Shown one piece after another: positions 14,722 through 30,973 of a stretch of 64,000 bases of DNA. Made by a program: the position numbers and the translations under genes. This DNA comes from Bacillota bacterium (GTDB taxonomy: Bacteria > Bacillota > Clostridia > Lachnospirales > Lachnospiraceae): contig JAEWJZ010000029.1 of NCBI GenBank assembly GCA_023386315.1, positions 62,001 to 126,000 on the forward strand. The letters are read 5' to 3'. Under the pieces are notes generated by a model. That model searched no databases. It was not told where the DNA came from and saw nothing but the letters and a program-made list of their open reading frames with translations. Positions within the stretch are counted from its first letter, which is position 1. Every line of letters begins with the position of its first letter.

Positions 14722-15036
14722 ATGTCGGGACGCTTTTGTTTAAATGACTTAAAAAGAGGTCAGAAAGGTATCATTGCAAGACTGACCGTTTGTGATGATA
14801 TGAGACGGAGATTACAGGATATGGGGCTGATTGAGGGCACAGTGGTGGAGTGTGTCGGTAAAAGTCCTCTTGGGGACCCAACTGCATTTTTAATCAGAGG
14901 TGCTGTAATAGCACTGCGAAATGAAGATTCCGTCAGGGTTCTTATAAAAAATAAGGATCAGGAGTCCTTTGAACCAGGTTATGGAGAAGGGATTGTGGCT
15001 GCCTGTGCCACAGCGGAGGAAAAAATATGGGACTAA
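14722..15036 (+). CDS. feoA: FeoA ferrous-iron transport accessory protein
   Basis: 104 residues with the SH3-like FeoA pattern: LNDLKRGQKGIIARL, RRRLQDMGLIEGTVVECVGKSPLGDP, FLIRGAVIALRNEDS. It probably docks on FeoB to modulate its GTPase. The ATG at 14722 follows CGGAGG; a longer frame from 14653 adds an unlikely N-terminus. The 3' end overlaps the feoB start at 15027, so translation is coupled. The gene itself is intact even though feoB is broken. Confidence 0.92.
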   Translation: MSGRFCLNDLKRGQKGIIARLTVCDDMRRRLQDMGLIEGTVVECVGKSPLGDPTAFLIRGAVIALRNEDSVRVLIKNKDQESFEPGYGEGIVAACATAEEKIWD

Positions 15037-15185
15037 GCAGGGAATCCATGGGAATCAAATCGGTGGACTGCGGCCTGGAGATCAAAAAAAAGGAGGCAGG
15101 AGACCTGGTGATTGCTCTTGCCGGAAATCCCAATGTCGGAAAAAGCACAGTATTTAACCAGCTGACCGGTATGAACCAGCACACC
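15027..15185 (+). CDS. feoB: FeoB segment 1 of 3: start of the G domain (interrupted)
   Basis: Codons 1-53 of FeoB, the GTP-gated Fe(II) permease. Visible are GNPNVGKST (P-loop, G1) and FNQLTGMNQHT, which leads into switch I. The reading frame then enters element 1 and meets a stop at 15189, so as it stands only a 54-residue stub is made. In other FeoB proteins QHT is followed by GNWPGKTV, which is exactly how segment 2 resumes at 17557. The segment length is a multiple of three, so the break falls between codons. Confidence 0.93.
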
Positions 15186-15199
15186 TGCTGATGTGTTTA
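15169..15199 (+). other. attL of element 1
   Basis: The feoB half-site is followed by the core CACC (15182-15185), within CAGCACACC, and then the element's left arm GCTGATGTGTTTA (15187-15199). The right end has CAGCCCACC and the inverted arm. CACC is the only stretch common to both ends at the point where the feoB frame must be rejoined. Confidence 0.75.
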
Positions 15200-15211
15200 G
15201 AGGTAAAAATT

Positions 15212-28337: not shown

Positions 28338-28493
28338 ATGGATTTGTCCAAAGAGATCACCTATGAAAAAGAAAGCGGAGAAAAGCGGGTAACAGTCAAA
28401 GTGGAGCGATGCTTTCAATGTGAAGCAACAATACAGCAAATAATTCTTAATCTTCTGAAGAGGCGTCTTCATGCAGGGGGAGGTCTAAGATGA
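28338..28493 (+). CDS. Small protein translationally coupled to recombinase 2 (candidate directionality factor)
   Basis: 51 residues beginning MDLSKEITYEKESGEKRVTV, with a central ERCFQCEATIQQIILNLLKRR helix. The ATG follows TCAGGAGGTGGGCACT. Its stop overlaps the recombinase start (ATGA), the sign of tight coupling. Its size and place suggest a recombination accessory or directionality factor, but no family is recognised. It shares no obvious sequence with the 49-residue protein of element 1. Confidence 0.7.
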   Translation: MDLSKEITYEKESGEKRVTVKVERCFQCEATIQQIILNLLKRRLHAGGGLR

Positions 28494-30115
28494 GCGGGGG
28501 AGTAAAAGGAAGGGAGGGAGTCAGATACCAGACGGCACTCTACATGCGCCTTTCCAAAGATGACGGAGCGGGAGAGAGCGCCAGTATCAGCACCCAGCGG
28601 AGCATGCTCCGGGAATATGCCAGAGAAAACGGTTTTATTGTTTATCGGGAATATATTGATGACGGCTTCAGCGGGACTACGTTTGAACGCCCGGCATGGA
28701 AATGCCTTCTTGCAGATATAGAAGCCGGTAAAGTCAATCTGGTTATTACCAGAGATCTTTCCAGGCTCGGAAGGGACTATATCCTTACCGGTCAGTATAC
28801 GGAGATCTATTTTCCAGCCAGAGGGGTCCGTTATATTGCGGTAAATGATGGTTACGATTCCCTTAATCCGGGAAACGACCTGGCACCTTTCCAGAATATT
28901 GTGAATGAAATGTATGCCAGAGATACCTCAAAAAAGATCCGCAGCGCATTAAGGACCAAAATGAAAGAGGGTGCATTTATCGGAAATTTTGCCCCATATG
29001 GGTACAGGAAAGACCCGGAGGATAAAAATCATCTTCTGATTGACCCGGTTACAGCTCCGGTTGTCAGAGAGATTTTTGAGCGCGCATCGAAGGGTGAGGC
29101 ACCCTTGAAGATCGCAAAGCTTCTTAATCAGAAAGGAGTTAAAACTCCGGCACAATATCGCTGTTTCCATCGCCACGAACTCTTTCTGGAAAACGGGGAA
29201 GGAAATAAAGAGTGGGTATCCGGTACTATTTGCAAGGTTCTGTCCAATCCTGTCTATACAGGAGATATCGTACAGGGGAAATCCTCCAAGCTGTCCTTTA
29301 AAAGCCAGATTACCTTAAATATACCCAAAGAGGATTGGATTGTTGTAAAGGATAAGCACCAGCCAATTGTAACCAGAGAAATGTTTGAGCAGGCAGGAAG
29401 ACGGAAAATTTCAAGAAAAAGATCAAAATCCTCCCAGTTTACCAATGTATTTTCCGGACTGGTATACTGCGGGGACTGTAAAAGAGTAATGACGACAACC
29501 AGGGCCGGCAGGAAGGGTGAGGAGAGAAAGCTGGTATGCAGCGGATATAAGCAGTATGGGAAAACAGCATGTACCAATCATTACATGGAATACGGTCTGC
29601 TCTGCCAGATTGTGTCTCAGGAGCTTACGGCACTTATCACCCTGACGGAAAAAGAAAGAAAAGAGATTGCAAAAGAAATGGAAGCCTATGGTAAAAAAAA
29701 GGGTAATCCGGATGAAAAGCAGGCAGCCACTTCTTTAAAAAAGAGGGAAAGGGAGATTGACCGTATCATAAGAAAGCTTTACGAGGACCGTGTTAACGCA
29801 GTGGTAGAGGAAGAACGTTTTTATAAGCTTATCGCTTCTTATGAACATGAGCTAAAGGAGATACAGGCAGAAGAAGCTGCATTGAAGGAAACCACTGCAT
29901 CTGTGTGGAAAAGCACAGGAAAATCAGAACATGATGTGGACCGGTTGTTAAATGAGTTAATGGAAGACGGAATTCCTGCTTTCGATCTTTTGCAACAGTT
30001 TATTGACCGTATTGAAATTTTTCAGTCCAGGAAAGAAACGGATCAGAAAGACAAAAGGCTTCTTACCGTCCGGATCTGTTACCGGTCAGAGCCGCCGGGC
30101 ATCAAAAAAGCATAG
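28490..30115 (+). CDS. Large serine recombinase of element 2
   Basis: 541 residues, intact. Catalytic domain about 12-165 with nucleophile Ser in ALYMRLSKDDG, then ISTQRSMLREYARENGF, DDGFSGTTFERPAW and RDLSRLGRDYI; recombinase domain about 185-300 (FAPYGYRKDPED, GDIVQGKSS); zinc ribbon with YCGDCKRVM and a later Cys pair; a Lys/Glu-rich coiled coil near 390-460. It resembles transposon/prophage-type large serine recombinases and differs clearly from recombinase 1, so the two elements are independent arrivals. Its stop lies within the attP arm, 12 bases from the core. Confidence 0.94.
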   Translation: MSGGVKGREGVRYQTALYMRLSKDDGAGESASISTQRSMLREYARENGFIVYREYIDDGFSGTTFERPAWKCLLADIEAGKVNLVITRDLSRLGRDYILTGQYTEIYFPARGVRYIAVNDGYDSLNPGNDLAPFQNIVNEMYARDTSKKIRSALRTKMKEGAFIGNFAPYGYRKDPEDKNHLLIDPVTAPVVREIFERASKGEAPLKIAKLLNQKGVKTPAQYRCFHRHELFLENGEGNKEWVSGTICKVLSNPVYTGDIVQGKSSKLSFKSQITLNIPKEDWIVVKDKHQPIVTREMFEQAGRRKISRKRSKSSQFTNVFSGLVYCGDCKRVMTTTRAGRKGEERKLVCSGYKQYGKTACTNHYMEYGLLCQIVSQELTALITLTEKERKEIAKEMEAYGKKKGNPDEKQAATSLKKREREIDRIIRKLYEDRVNAVVEEERFYKLIASYEHELKEIQAEEAALKETTASVWKSTGKSEHDVDRLLNELMEDGIPAFDLLQQFIDRIEIFQSRKETDQKDKRLLTVRICYRSEPPGIKKA

Positions 30116-30140
30116 ATTTCCTCCGTCATGTGCATGGGAT
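30104..30140 (+). other. attR of element 2
   Basis: Right arm 30104-30126 (ending GATTTCCTCCGT) is the inverted copy of the left arm; core CATGTG is at 30127-30132, then feoB resumes with CATGGGATTTGG. Joining with attL gives CTG ACC ATG TGC ATG GGA, i.e. LTMCMG, the expected FeoB sequence. Confidence 0.88.
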
Positions 30141-30973
30141 TTGGCTGCAATGCGGCAGGGATTGTAGGCTGCCGGATTATTGATTCTCCAAGAGAACGTC
30201 TCATTGCAATGATCACCAATAACTTTGTTCCCTGTAACGGGCGTTTTCCAACCATGATTGCAATTATTACCATGTTTTTTATCGGAGGAGCGGCGGGACC
30301 ATTTTCCACTGTCTTATCTGCAGGTATCCTGTCAGGTATCATTCTTCTTGGTATTCTGATGACCCTGATAATATCCAAAATCCTCTCTTTAACCATACTA
30401 AAGGGGATTCCGTCTTCCTTTACCTTAGAGCTGCCTCCTTACCGCAGACCCCAGATCGGAAAGGTTATTGTCCGGTCCATATTTGACCGGACGCTCTTTG
30501 TTCTTGGAAGGGCAGCTGCAGTAGCTGCTCCGGCTGGTCTGATAATCTGGCTGATGGCAAATATCACAGTGGGAGATATGACCTTATTATCCCACTGCTC
30601 CGGTTTTTTAGATCCTTTCGCCAGAGTAATCGGTCTTGACGGCGTGATTCTTCTGGCATTCATCCTTGGCTTTCCTGCCAATGAGATCGTTGTTCCCATC
30701 ATGATTATGGCCTATCTTTCCGAAGGAAGCATACGGGAAATCAATGATTTATCCATATTAAGGGATCTTTTAACTGCCAATGGCTGGACCTGGGTGACTG
30801 CTGTCAGTACCCTGCTTTTTTCCCTCATGCACTGGCCCTGTTCCACCACCTGTCTGACCATAAGAAAGGAGACAGGAAGCATGAAATGGACTCTTCTTTC
30901 CTGGCTTGTACCGACTGTTACCGGGGTGATAGTCTGCTTTTTGTTTACCTCCGCAGCGAGGGCGTTCCTGTAA
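30131..30973 (+). CDS. feoB: FeoB segment 3 of 3: second gate region and C-terminus (interrupted)
   Basis: 280 codons plus stop completing FeoB: CMGFGCNAAGIVGCRIIDS (gate motif and Cys residues), RERLIAMITNNFVPCNGRFP, several transmembrane helices, and the ending FLFTSAARAFL. An in-frame ATG at 30128 lies in the core itself, but the fragment has no ribosome site of its own. Segments 1+2+3 give 159+1146+843 nt = 715 codons plus stop, a normal FeoB length. No internal stop or frameshift is present in any segment, so selection appears to have kept the gene usable. Confidence 0.93.
   Translation, partial: CMGFGCNAAGIVGCRIIDSPRERLIAMITNNFVPCNGRFPTMIAIITMFFIGGAAGPFSTVLSAGILSGIILLGILMTLIISKILSLTILKGIPSSFTLELPPYRRPQIGKVIVRSIFDRTLFVLGRAAAVAAPAGLIIWLMANITVGDMTLLSHCSGFLDPFARVIGLDGVILLAFILGFPANEIVVPIMIMAYLSEGSIREINDLSILRDLLTANGWTWVTAVSTLLFSLMHWPCSTTCLTIRKETGSMKWTLLSWLVPTVTGVIVCFLFTSAARAFL

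Follow-up and report, generated by a model that had tools for sequence, protein, structure and literature searches.

Does a ferrous-iron transporter gene that lies in three pieces still encode a transporter, and, if so, how are the pieces reunited? The question is raised by feoB in a 64,000-nucleotide stretch (the window) from a Bacillota bacterium of the family Lachnospiraceae (contig JAEWJZ010000029.1, positions 62,001 to 126,000), in which two elements, each with a large serine recombinase (LSR) gene, interrupt the reading frame at sites termed A and C (Table 1). As the original prediction had claimed, the three feoB pieces (N, M, and C) join into 715 codons with no stop. The split is neither decay nor a strain quirk. 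The elements are best described as new gene-intervening elements of the skin type, the type that interrupts sigK, in a ferrous-iron transporter. Their precise excision probably takes place in the mother cell during sporulation, and the rejoined gene would be transcribed there from a likely sigma-K promoter.

Both breaks sit between short direct-repeat cores, CACC at site A and CATGTG at site C, such that excision would restore the frame. The earlier statement that the breaks fall between codons holds in that the frame is kept, but the exact position is a matter of choice: because the cores are shared, the frame is preserved at any core base. Each core is accompanied by an arm that is inverted at the opposite end of the element (GCTGATGT and ACATCAGC at site A, GAAATCTATGC and GCATAGATTTC at site C). 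Each gap holds an intact LSR gene that ends near one boundary, rec1 26 bases inside the left edge of element A and rec2 15 bases inside the right edge of element C, and the Resolvase domains of both span nearly the entire Pfam model. The predicted architecture is confirmed.

The same insertion points recur among 25 related genomes, which were assigned to the genus Lacrimispora by protein labels. Site C is split in all 19 relatives that span the site on one contig, with the window as a further case, and is open in none. A rec2-like LSR is present in the element of each of these 19 relatives. Across 20 genomes the core of the site-C junction is kept while the arms differ at few bases, and this recurrence is far beyond chance. 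Site-C elements range from 4.8 to 20.2 kilobases (kb) in size, and across all sites a recombinase-family open reading frame (ORF) was present in 38 of the 38 element copies analysed. The mapping of feoB pieces and recombinases onto the genomes took recombinase matches of at least 35% identity. Among the 18 relatives with rec2 in one frame, the distance from the rec2 stop to the last feoB piece is 12 bases in 15, 34 bases in 2, and 1,540 bases in G008. Of the other genomes, G017 has both site-C junctions on two contigs, G020 shows one side, only a later feoB piece was found in G022, and G014 is without this feoB lineage and has an intact, more distant FeoB; no piece of the split feoB was found in G006 (82% complete) or G012 (67% complete). 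At site A, 10 relatives and the window are split, 8 relatives are open, and 2 show one half of the site; a third site, D, within the last feoB piece, is split in 7 relatives and open in 13 and the window. Site C is shared genus-wide, and sites A and D are polymorphic. An intact FeoB paralogue was present in 11 of the 11 relatives for which it was fetched.

All pieces of the split gene are under purifying selection comparable to that on the intact paralogue. Ratios of nonsynonymous to synonymous divergence (dN/dS; Nei-Gojobori method, related pairs) were 0.00 to 0.14 for piece N (15 pairs), 0.03 to 0.14 for piece M (15 pairs; G008, G018, and G025, which have in-frame expansions, excluded), and 0.03 to 0.09 for piece C (10 pairs; genomes split at site D excluded), as against 0.04 to 0.08 for the intact paralogue in the same genomes (12 pairs). 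For the part of piece C behind site D, the ratio was 0.03 to 0.09 in eight pairs, and a ninth pair was identical. No stop occurs across 21 joined piece sets, 3 of them partial. The recombinases are also under constraint (rec2, 0.12 to 0.24; rec1, 0.09 to 0.18; copies not in one long frame excluded).

The 16 sequences in which feoB-M, rec2, and ccdA (the CcdA-redoxin gene of element C) are all present yielded trees whose main groups agree, and the pairwise distances of feoB, rec2, and ccdA are strongly correlated (Mantel r, 0.948, 0.923, and 0.933; 0 of 5,000 permutations as high). Synonymous divergence reaches about 0.9 to 1.5 in the deeper pairs for both feoB-M and rec2. Tree agreement, distance correlation, and low dN/dS together indicate that the site-C element has been inherited with feoB and that selection sees the whole FeoB. 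Between the window and G001, the dS of rec2 is 0.82, as opposed to 0.15 to 0.20 for feoB and ccdA, so the recombinase end of element C has probably been exchanged.

Uninterrupted forms of the same gene are also on record. Two proteins, P0006 (labelled Lacrimispora sphenoides, on an NCBI contig of 21,893 bases) and P0007 (on a contig of 2,606 bases), agree at 715 of 715 residues with the FeoB obtained by joining the pieces of G015 and of G016, respectively, although feoB of each of these genomes is split by 8.3 kb. These matches show that a precise empty site C with the predicted junction exists; empty forms of site A and site D are provided by the 8 relatives, and by the 13 relatives and the window, respectively, in which those sites are open. 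With the dN/dS values, the codivergence, and the exact empty-site proteins, the claim of two independent LSR elements in a gene with every segment intact, rather than simple decay, is upheld.

Interruption of feoB extends beyond the genus. Among the named loci outside it (the best 80 of at least 575 confirmed stretches), 8 are interrupted at site C (L064, L067, L081, L083, L105, L107, L114, and L126) and 1 at site D (L079), 68 have an open frame of at least 660 amino acids, 2 are cut off where the contig stops, and in 1 the frame is broken within the last piece. A distant LSR, 24 to 30% identical to rec1 or rec2, follows the break and reads in the opposite direction in five of the eight loci interrupted at site C, and in Massiliimalia timonensis the last feoB piece lies 41.6 kb further along the same contig. 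Thus feoB has been targeted repeatedly by unrelated LSR elements. Among FeoB proteins of the Hungatella type (P0159 to P0173, P0030, P0060, and P0063), some are interrupted at site C or D and others are intact, with pairs identical over 588 to 599 residues (P0161 and P0060, 590 of 590; P0171 and P0063, 588 of 588). In a family-wide draw, in which 49 of 299 genomes had a match, feoB-C occupies its own open frame of 290 to 302 amino acids in G109, G297, G260, and G256; these frames suggest site-C splits in more genera. Phage records with feoB-like pieces are unannotated faecal contigs.

The region upstream of feoA points to when the gene would be transcribed. Two blocks, G[GT]AACC and TGCATATGTTAGGATATGGAAAC, occur in 19 of 19 sequences (18 relatives and the window). 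The spacer between them is constant in length but less conserved, and the sequence around them has diverged. The two blocks match the sigma-K pattern known from B. subtilis, AC-N17-CATANNNTA. A 21-mer from this region is exact in 22 of the 25 genomes and was located at feoA in all 18 that were aligned; the background of the pattern is 49 occurrences in 621,843 bases on both strands, with the 19 feoA sites counted in. Outside the genus, 24 of 71 feoA loci have the pattern within the 250 bases ahead of the gene, as against 1 with it on the reverse strand, and 21 of the 24 forward sites lie 56 to 114 bases ahead of the feoA start. In a wider upstream stretch from 77 of the 80 named loci, it is found in 28 on the forward strand and 1 on the reverse strand, compared with 2 and 0 in coding DNA and with a mean of 1.24 (maximum, 5) in 200 shuffles. 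None of 11 upstream regions of the intact paralogue (429 to 517 bases each) contains it. For C. difficile, excerpts of a published study (PMC3789822) describe sigma-K promoters with AC at -35 and a sigma-E-like -10, and list feoA-feoB (CD1518-CD1517) at 0.05-fold in a sigK mutant, with a sigma-K promoter.

The parallel with the sigK skin element, drawn in the original prediction, has gained ground in that the genus itself has an LSR-split sigK. This gene is in two pieces in 18 of the 18 Lacrimispora genomes fetched (L196 to L213), and its insert encodes an LSR of approximately 480 to 600 codons, 20 to 24% identical to rec2, that reads into the 3' piece, the layout seen in element C. The sigK halves of G015 score higher with SigK than with SigE models (143 versus 122 bits and 145 versus 114 bits), and no one-piece match in the same search reaches the SigK cut-off; an intact homologue of about 250 codons (250 bits) is probably sigE. 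Sporulation genes are widespread in the sample (spoIVA and spoIIIAA in 24 of 25 genomes each, spoIIID in 25 of 25). Many sigK inserts carry genes that, judged by a motif, may encode NiFe hydrogenase subunits, and in G025 and G008 (L202 and L206) three more LSR genes stand in tandem just past the sigK 3' piece.

Under the mechanism that we propose, each recombinase would cut its own left and right attachment sites (attL and attR) with the help of a small element-encoded directionality factor. Excision would take place in the mother cell; since the genome of that cell is lost, the spore line would keep the inserted form. The likely sigma-K promoter upstream of feoA would give transcription of the rejoined feoB, and the restored FeoB would import Fe(II) late in sporulation. 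If sigK in the genome from which the window comes is also in two pieces, as it is in the relatives, one cell would have to complete three excisions to make FeoB, at sigK, site A, and site C. In excerpts on SP-beta of B. subtilis (PMC4191935), mother-cell excision costs the lineage nothing and the forespore keeps the insert; by analogy, this reasoning would account for a feoB that carries insertions and yet has pieces under continued selection. A wider picture, which we regard as possible if somewhat doubtful, is a mother-cell cascade in which one recombinase first restores sigK, sigma-K then transcribes feoAB, and one to three further, independent recombinases each have to leave feoB for the transporter to be produced. 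This would amount to an AND gate in DNA, with the mother cell as a somatic cell with an edited genome, and the recurrent targeting of feoB across Clostridia would reflect a need for its product in that cell alone.

Gene function is regained by excision in several systems. The fdxN (xisF) and nifD elements of heterocyst-forming cyanobacteria are excised in terminal cells, and in "active lysogeny" the comK prophage of Listeria and the hlb phages of Staphylococcus leave the genes that they interrupt. The best NCBIfam model for rec1 is XisF, yet at 129.6 bits it does not reach the cut-off of 375, and host and cell fate differ from those of the fdxN element. Active lysogeny is alike in that excision restores function but differs in being reversible, in involving functional prophages, and in occurring in vegetative cells. 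No phage structural gene, the mark of a comK-type prophage, turned up in either element when rec1, rec2, the VanW and CcdA-redoxin proteins, and the 49- and 51-amino-acid ORFs were compared with PHROG and Pfam, and the GH59 protein and 117-amino-acid ORF product with Pfam. This also sets the elements apart from SP-beta, a phage whose precise mother-cell excision from spsM, through sprA and sprB, resembles the present case in restoring a structural, nonregulatory gene, as excerpts of that report describe (PMC4191935). The skin element in sigK of C. difficile, according to passages of PMC5025042, depends on the LSR CD1231 and the directionality factor CD1234, with sporulation control placed on the small factor and not on the recombinase. 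The feoB elements are similar to it in interrupting a coding gene, in combining an LSR with a small factor (a candidate here), and in that the germ line would keep the insert, but here the host gene encodes a metal transporter and not a regulator, there are two to three elements per gene, and the recombinases are dissimilar. The gin element in gerE of Bacillus cereus, to go by passages of PMC5595907, also intervenes in a mother-cell gene without being a phage and encodes serine recombinases. Whereas gin is a single element that occupies one gene in some strains, element C occurs throughout the genus, and a CcdA-redoxin gene is conserved in it. A further report (PMC10747680) places a yin element in the yabG gene of C. 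botulinum.

In the literature consulted, elements said to be excised at sporulation lie in sigK, spsM, gerE, yabG, spoVFB, and spoVR, and no account of an interrupted feoB was found among the open-access PubMed Central papers listed, as judged by titles, abstract openings, and passages. What is unusual about feoB is that two or three elements are stacked in one gene, that one site is fixed genus-wide, and that the target is metabolic. If correct, the present interpretation would add a case of programmed genome rearrangement that reaches mother-cell metabolism and would point to an importance of late Fe(II) uptake for the spore; the system also offers several LSRs with natural target sites in the codons of FeoB motifs.

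The original prediction envisaged a reversible switch on Fe(II) uptake. Of this, the likeness to skin stands, and the reversible, environmental part is not supported, given that none of the related genomes that show site C has it open, that 11 genomes have an intact paralogue, and that the region upstream of feoA fits a late mother-cell (sigma-K) promoter. Together these observations point to a terminal, one-way excision at sporulation. A stochastic or iron-responsive switch in growing cells, with elements leaving and re-entering feoB according to iron supply, would draw on the ability of LSR systems both to integrate and to excise, on the identity of uninterrupted and joined split proteins in Lacrimispora and of Hungatella-type proteins up to the break, and on the DtxR-type regulator gene that adjoins feoA; set against the uniformly filled site C and the sigma-K-type site, it is possible but unlikely, and less supported than skin-type excision. 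Quite unlikely, too, is that feoB is simply an integration hot spot whose elements are stable passengers, with FeoB conserved because insertions are young or often lost. The interruptions outside the genus with distant LSRs in five loci, the two forms of Hungatella-type proteins, and the polymorphism of sites A and D all fit such a hot spot, but the element at site C is genus-wide, coinherited, and deeply diverged, yet resides in a gene with dN/dS values like those of the intact paralogue.

The pieces might instead be translated separately and assemble as a split FeoB with no excision of DNA, since every piece is open and conserved and pieces M and C have in-frame start codons. Against this, the break at site A parts the P-loop from the next G-domain motifs, no Shine-Dalgarno-like run is seen by eye ahead of the piece-C start, and exact joined proteins exist for two relatives, which makes separate translation very improbable. 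Least probable of all is that a redundant transporter gene is simply decaying: these genomes do contain further intact FeoB homologues, but the low dN/dS in all pieces and the uninterrupted frames of the joined sets speak against relaxed constraint.

Several observations nonetheless weigh against skin-type excision in the mother cell, for which we infer both excision in this organism and its timing. P0006 and P0007 may represent excised molecules or strains from which the element has been lost. Neither a site-A-joined nor a full-length form from the window's clade was among the best 120 matches listed in either of two protein searches (of 7,498 matches in one of them), and viral contigs gave 0 matches to excised circles (attP) and 0 to the rejoined attB. 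The frame of rec1 is broken in G021 and G024 and that of rec2 in G024 and G006; the breaks in G021 and G024 are perhaps assembly errors. As for the promoter, the feoA pattern counts do not represent independent events because the loci are related, the pattern is absent from 47 of the 71 feoA loci outside the genus, and in its strict form it misses the dpaA control (0 of 18, with a near match by eye). The invariant feoA block runs 12 bases beyond the -10, longer than a promoter needs, and this excess, together with the adjoining DtxR-type gene, makes an iron operator possible. The comparison with FeoB of C. difficile and C. acetobutylicum assumes orthology; the available C. difficile table lacks a feoAB value for the sigE mutant (PMC3789822), and passages on C. 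acetobutylicum (PMC2530871) group feoA and feoB with other iron genes in a cluster of the early transitional kind. Inspection by eye showed no sigma-E or sigma-K site at the recombinase genes and small ORFs of either element, and a pattern search of the elements returned scattered matches in some and none in the two of the window.

Table 1. Features of the feoB region, in window coordinates (LSR, large serine recombinase; aa, amino acids)
Feature	Position	Strand	Remarks
DtxR/MntR-type iron/manganese-dependent repressor gene	14142..14567	-	divergent from feoA; Pfam PF01325, PF02742; NCBIfam MntR below cut-off
Predicted sigma-K-type promoter, AC-N17-CATATGTTA	14664..14703	+	inside two-part conserved block
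feoA	14722..15036	+	PF04023; ATG at 14722 picked as start from 19-sequence alignment
feoB piece N, 53 codons	15027..15185	+	holds P-loop
attL of element A, core CACC + arm	15182..15195	.	core 15182-15185; inverted arm 15187-15194
Element A, 2,371 bases	15186..17556	.	same site filled in 10 of 18 relatives with both sides read
rec1, LSR	15212..16609	-	Pfam Resolvase, Zn_ribbon_recom; phrog_95 integrase
49-aa ORF, candidate directionality factor	16739..16888	+	element A
117-aa low-complexity, lipoprotein-like ORF	16921..17274	-	element A
attR of element A, arm + core CACC	17544..17556	.	inverted arm 17544-17551; core 17553-17556
feoB piece M, 382 codons	17557..18702	+	Pfam FeoB_N, FeoB_Cyto, Gate
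attL of element C, core CATGTG + arm	18699..18721	.	core 18699-18704; inverted arm 18711-18721
Element C, 11,428 bases	18703..30130	.	
CcdA/DsbD-TM + redoxin fusion gene	18876..20201	+	
VanW/G5-domain protein gene	20206..21714	+	cargo; in 13 of 20 site-C elements
2,090-aa GH59/Big_3/choline-binding protein gene	21954..28226	+	cargo; Pfam; start codon uncertain
Conserved leader motif	28289..28316	+	ahead of 51-aa ORF and rec2
51-aa ORF, candidate directionality factor	28338..28493	+	overlaps rec2 start
rec2, LSR	28490..30115	+	Pfam Resolvase, Recombinase, Zn_ribbon_recom; phrog_95
attR of element C, arm + core CATGTG	30110..30132	.	inverted arm 30110-30120; core 30127-30132
feoB piece C, 280 codons + stop	30131..30973	+	Pfam Gate, FeoB_C

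The small ORFs of the two elements are candidates for the directionality factors. The cluster of the 49-amino-acid ORF is found in 11 of 11 site-A elements, the window counted, and relatives of the 51-amino-acid ORF are found in 17 of 20 site-C elements; neither ORF has a match in PHROG or Pfam. When sporulation promoters were sought at both recombinase genes and both small ORFs, the only resemblance was a -10-like CATACAWT, with no -35, before the small ORF of element A, and this was rejected as evidence. The 117-amino-acid ORF of that element has no Pfam match below an E value of 0.1, and the window has no Rfam match between 11000 and 33000.

In PHROG, rec1 and rec2 fall into integrase, invertase, and transposase families and the CcdA-redoxin protein into phrog_33510 (unknown function) and a thioredoxin family; the VanW protein has no match there. 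An ORF related to CcdA-redoxin is present in 20 of 20 site-C elements and is full length (at least 430 amino acids) in 19. The leader motif, GTATA-N-GGTACAAACC-N5-GAATAAG, is kept genus-wide, with a second copy about 2 kb upstream in several genomes. Allowing at most one mismatch, it occurs at 27 places in 19 of the 25 genomes. Nearly all of these places belong to the feoB region, as the rec2 leader or the second copy upstream of it, and only two lie clearly elsewhere by coordinates; this near confinement led to its rejection as a regulon signal.

Some relatives depart from the common arrangement. In G002 (L039), feoB copies stand in tandem, one as a 711-amino-acid open frame and one split, and the feoA block is present twice. 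In G018, G025, and G008 (L048, L049, and L050), piece M forms a single open frame that is extended between its GTPase and membrane parts. The GH59/Big_3/choline-binding cargo lies in element C of the window, and the element of the sister genome G001 is only 5.0 kb.

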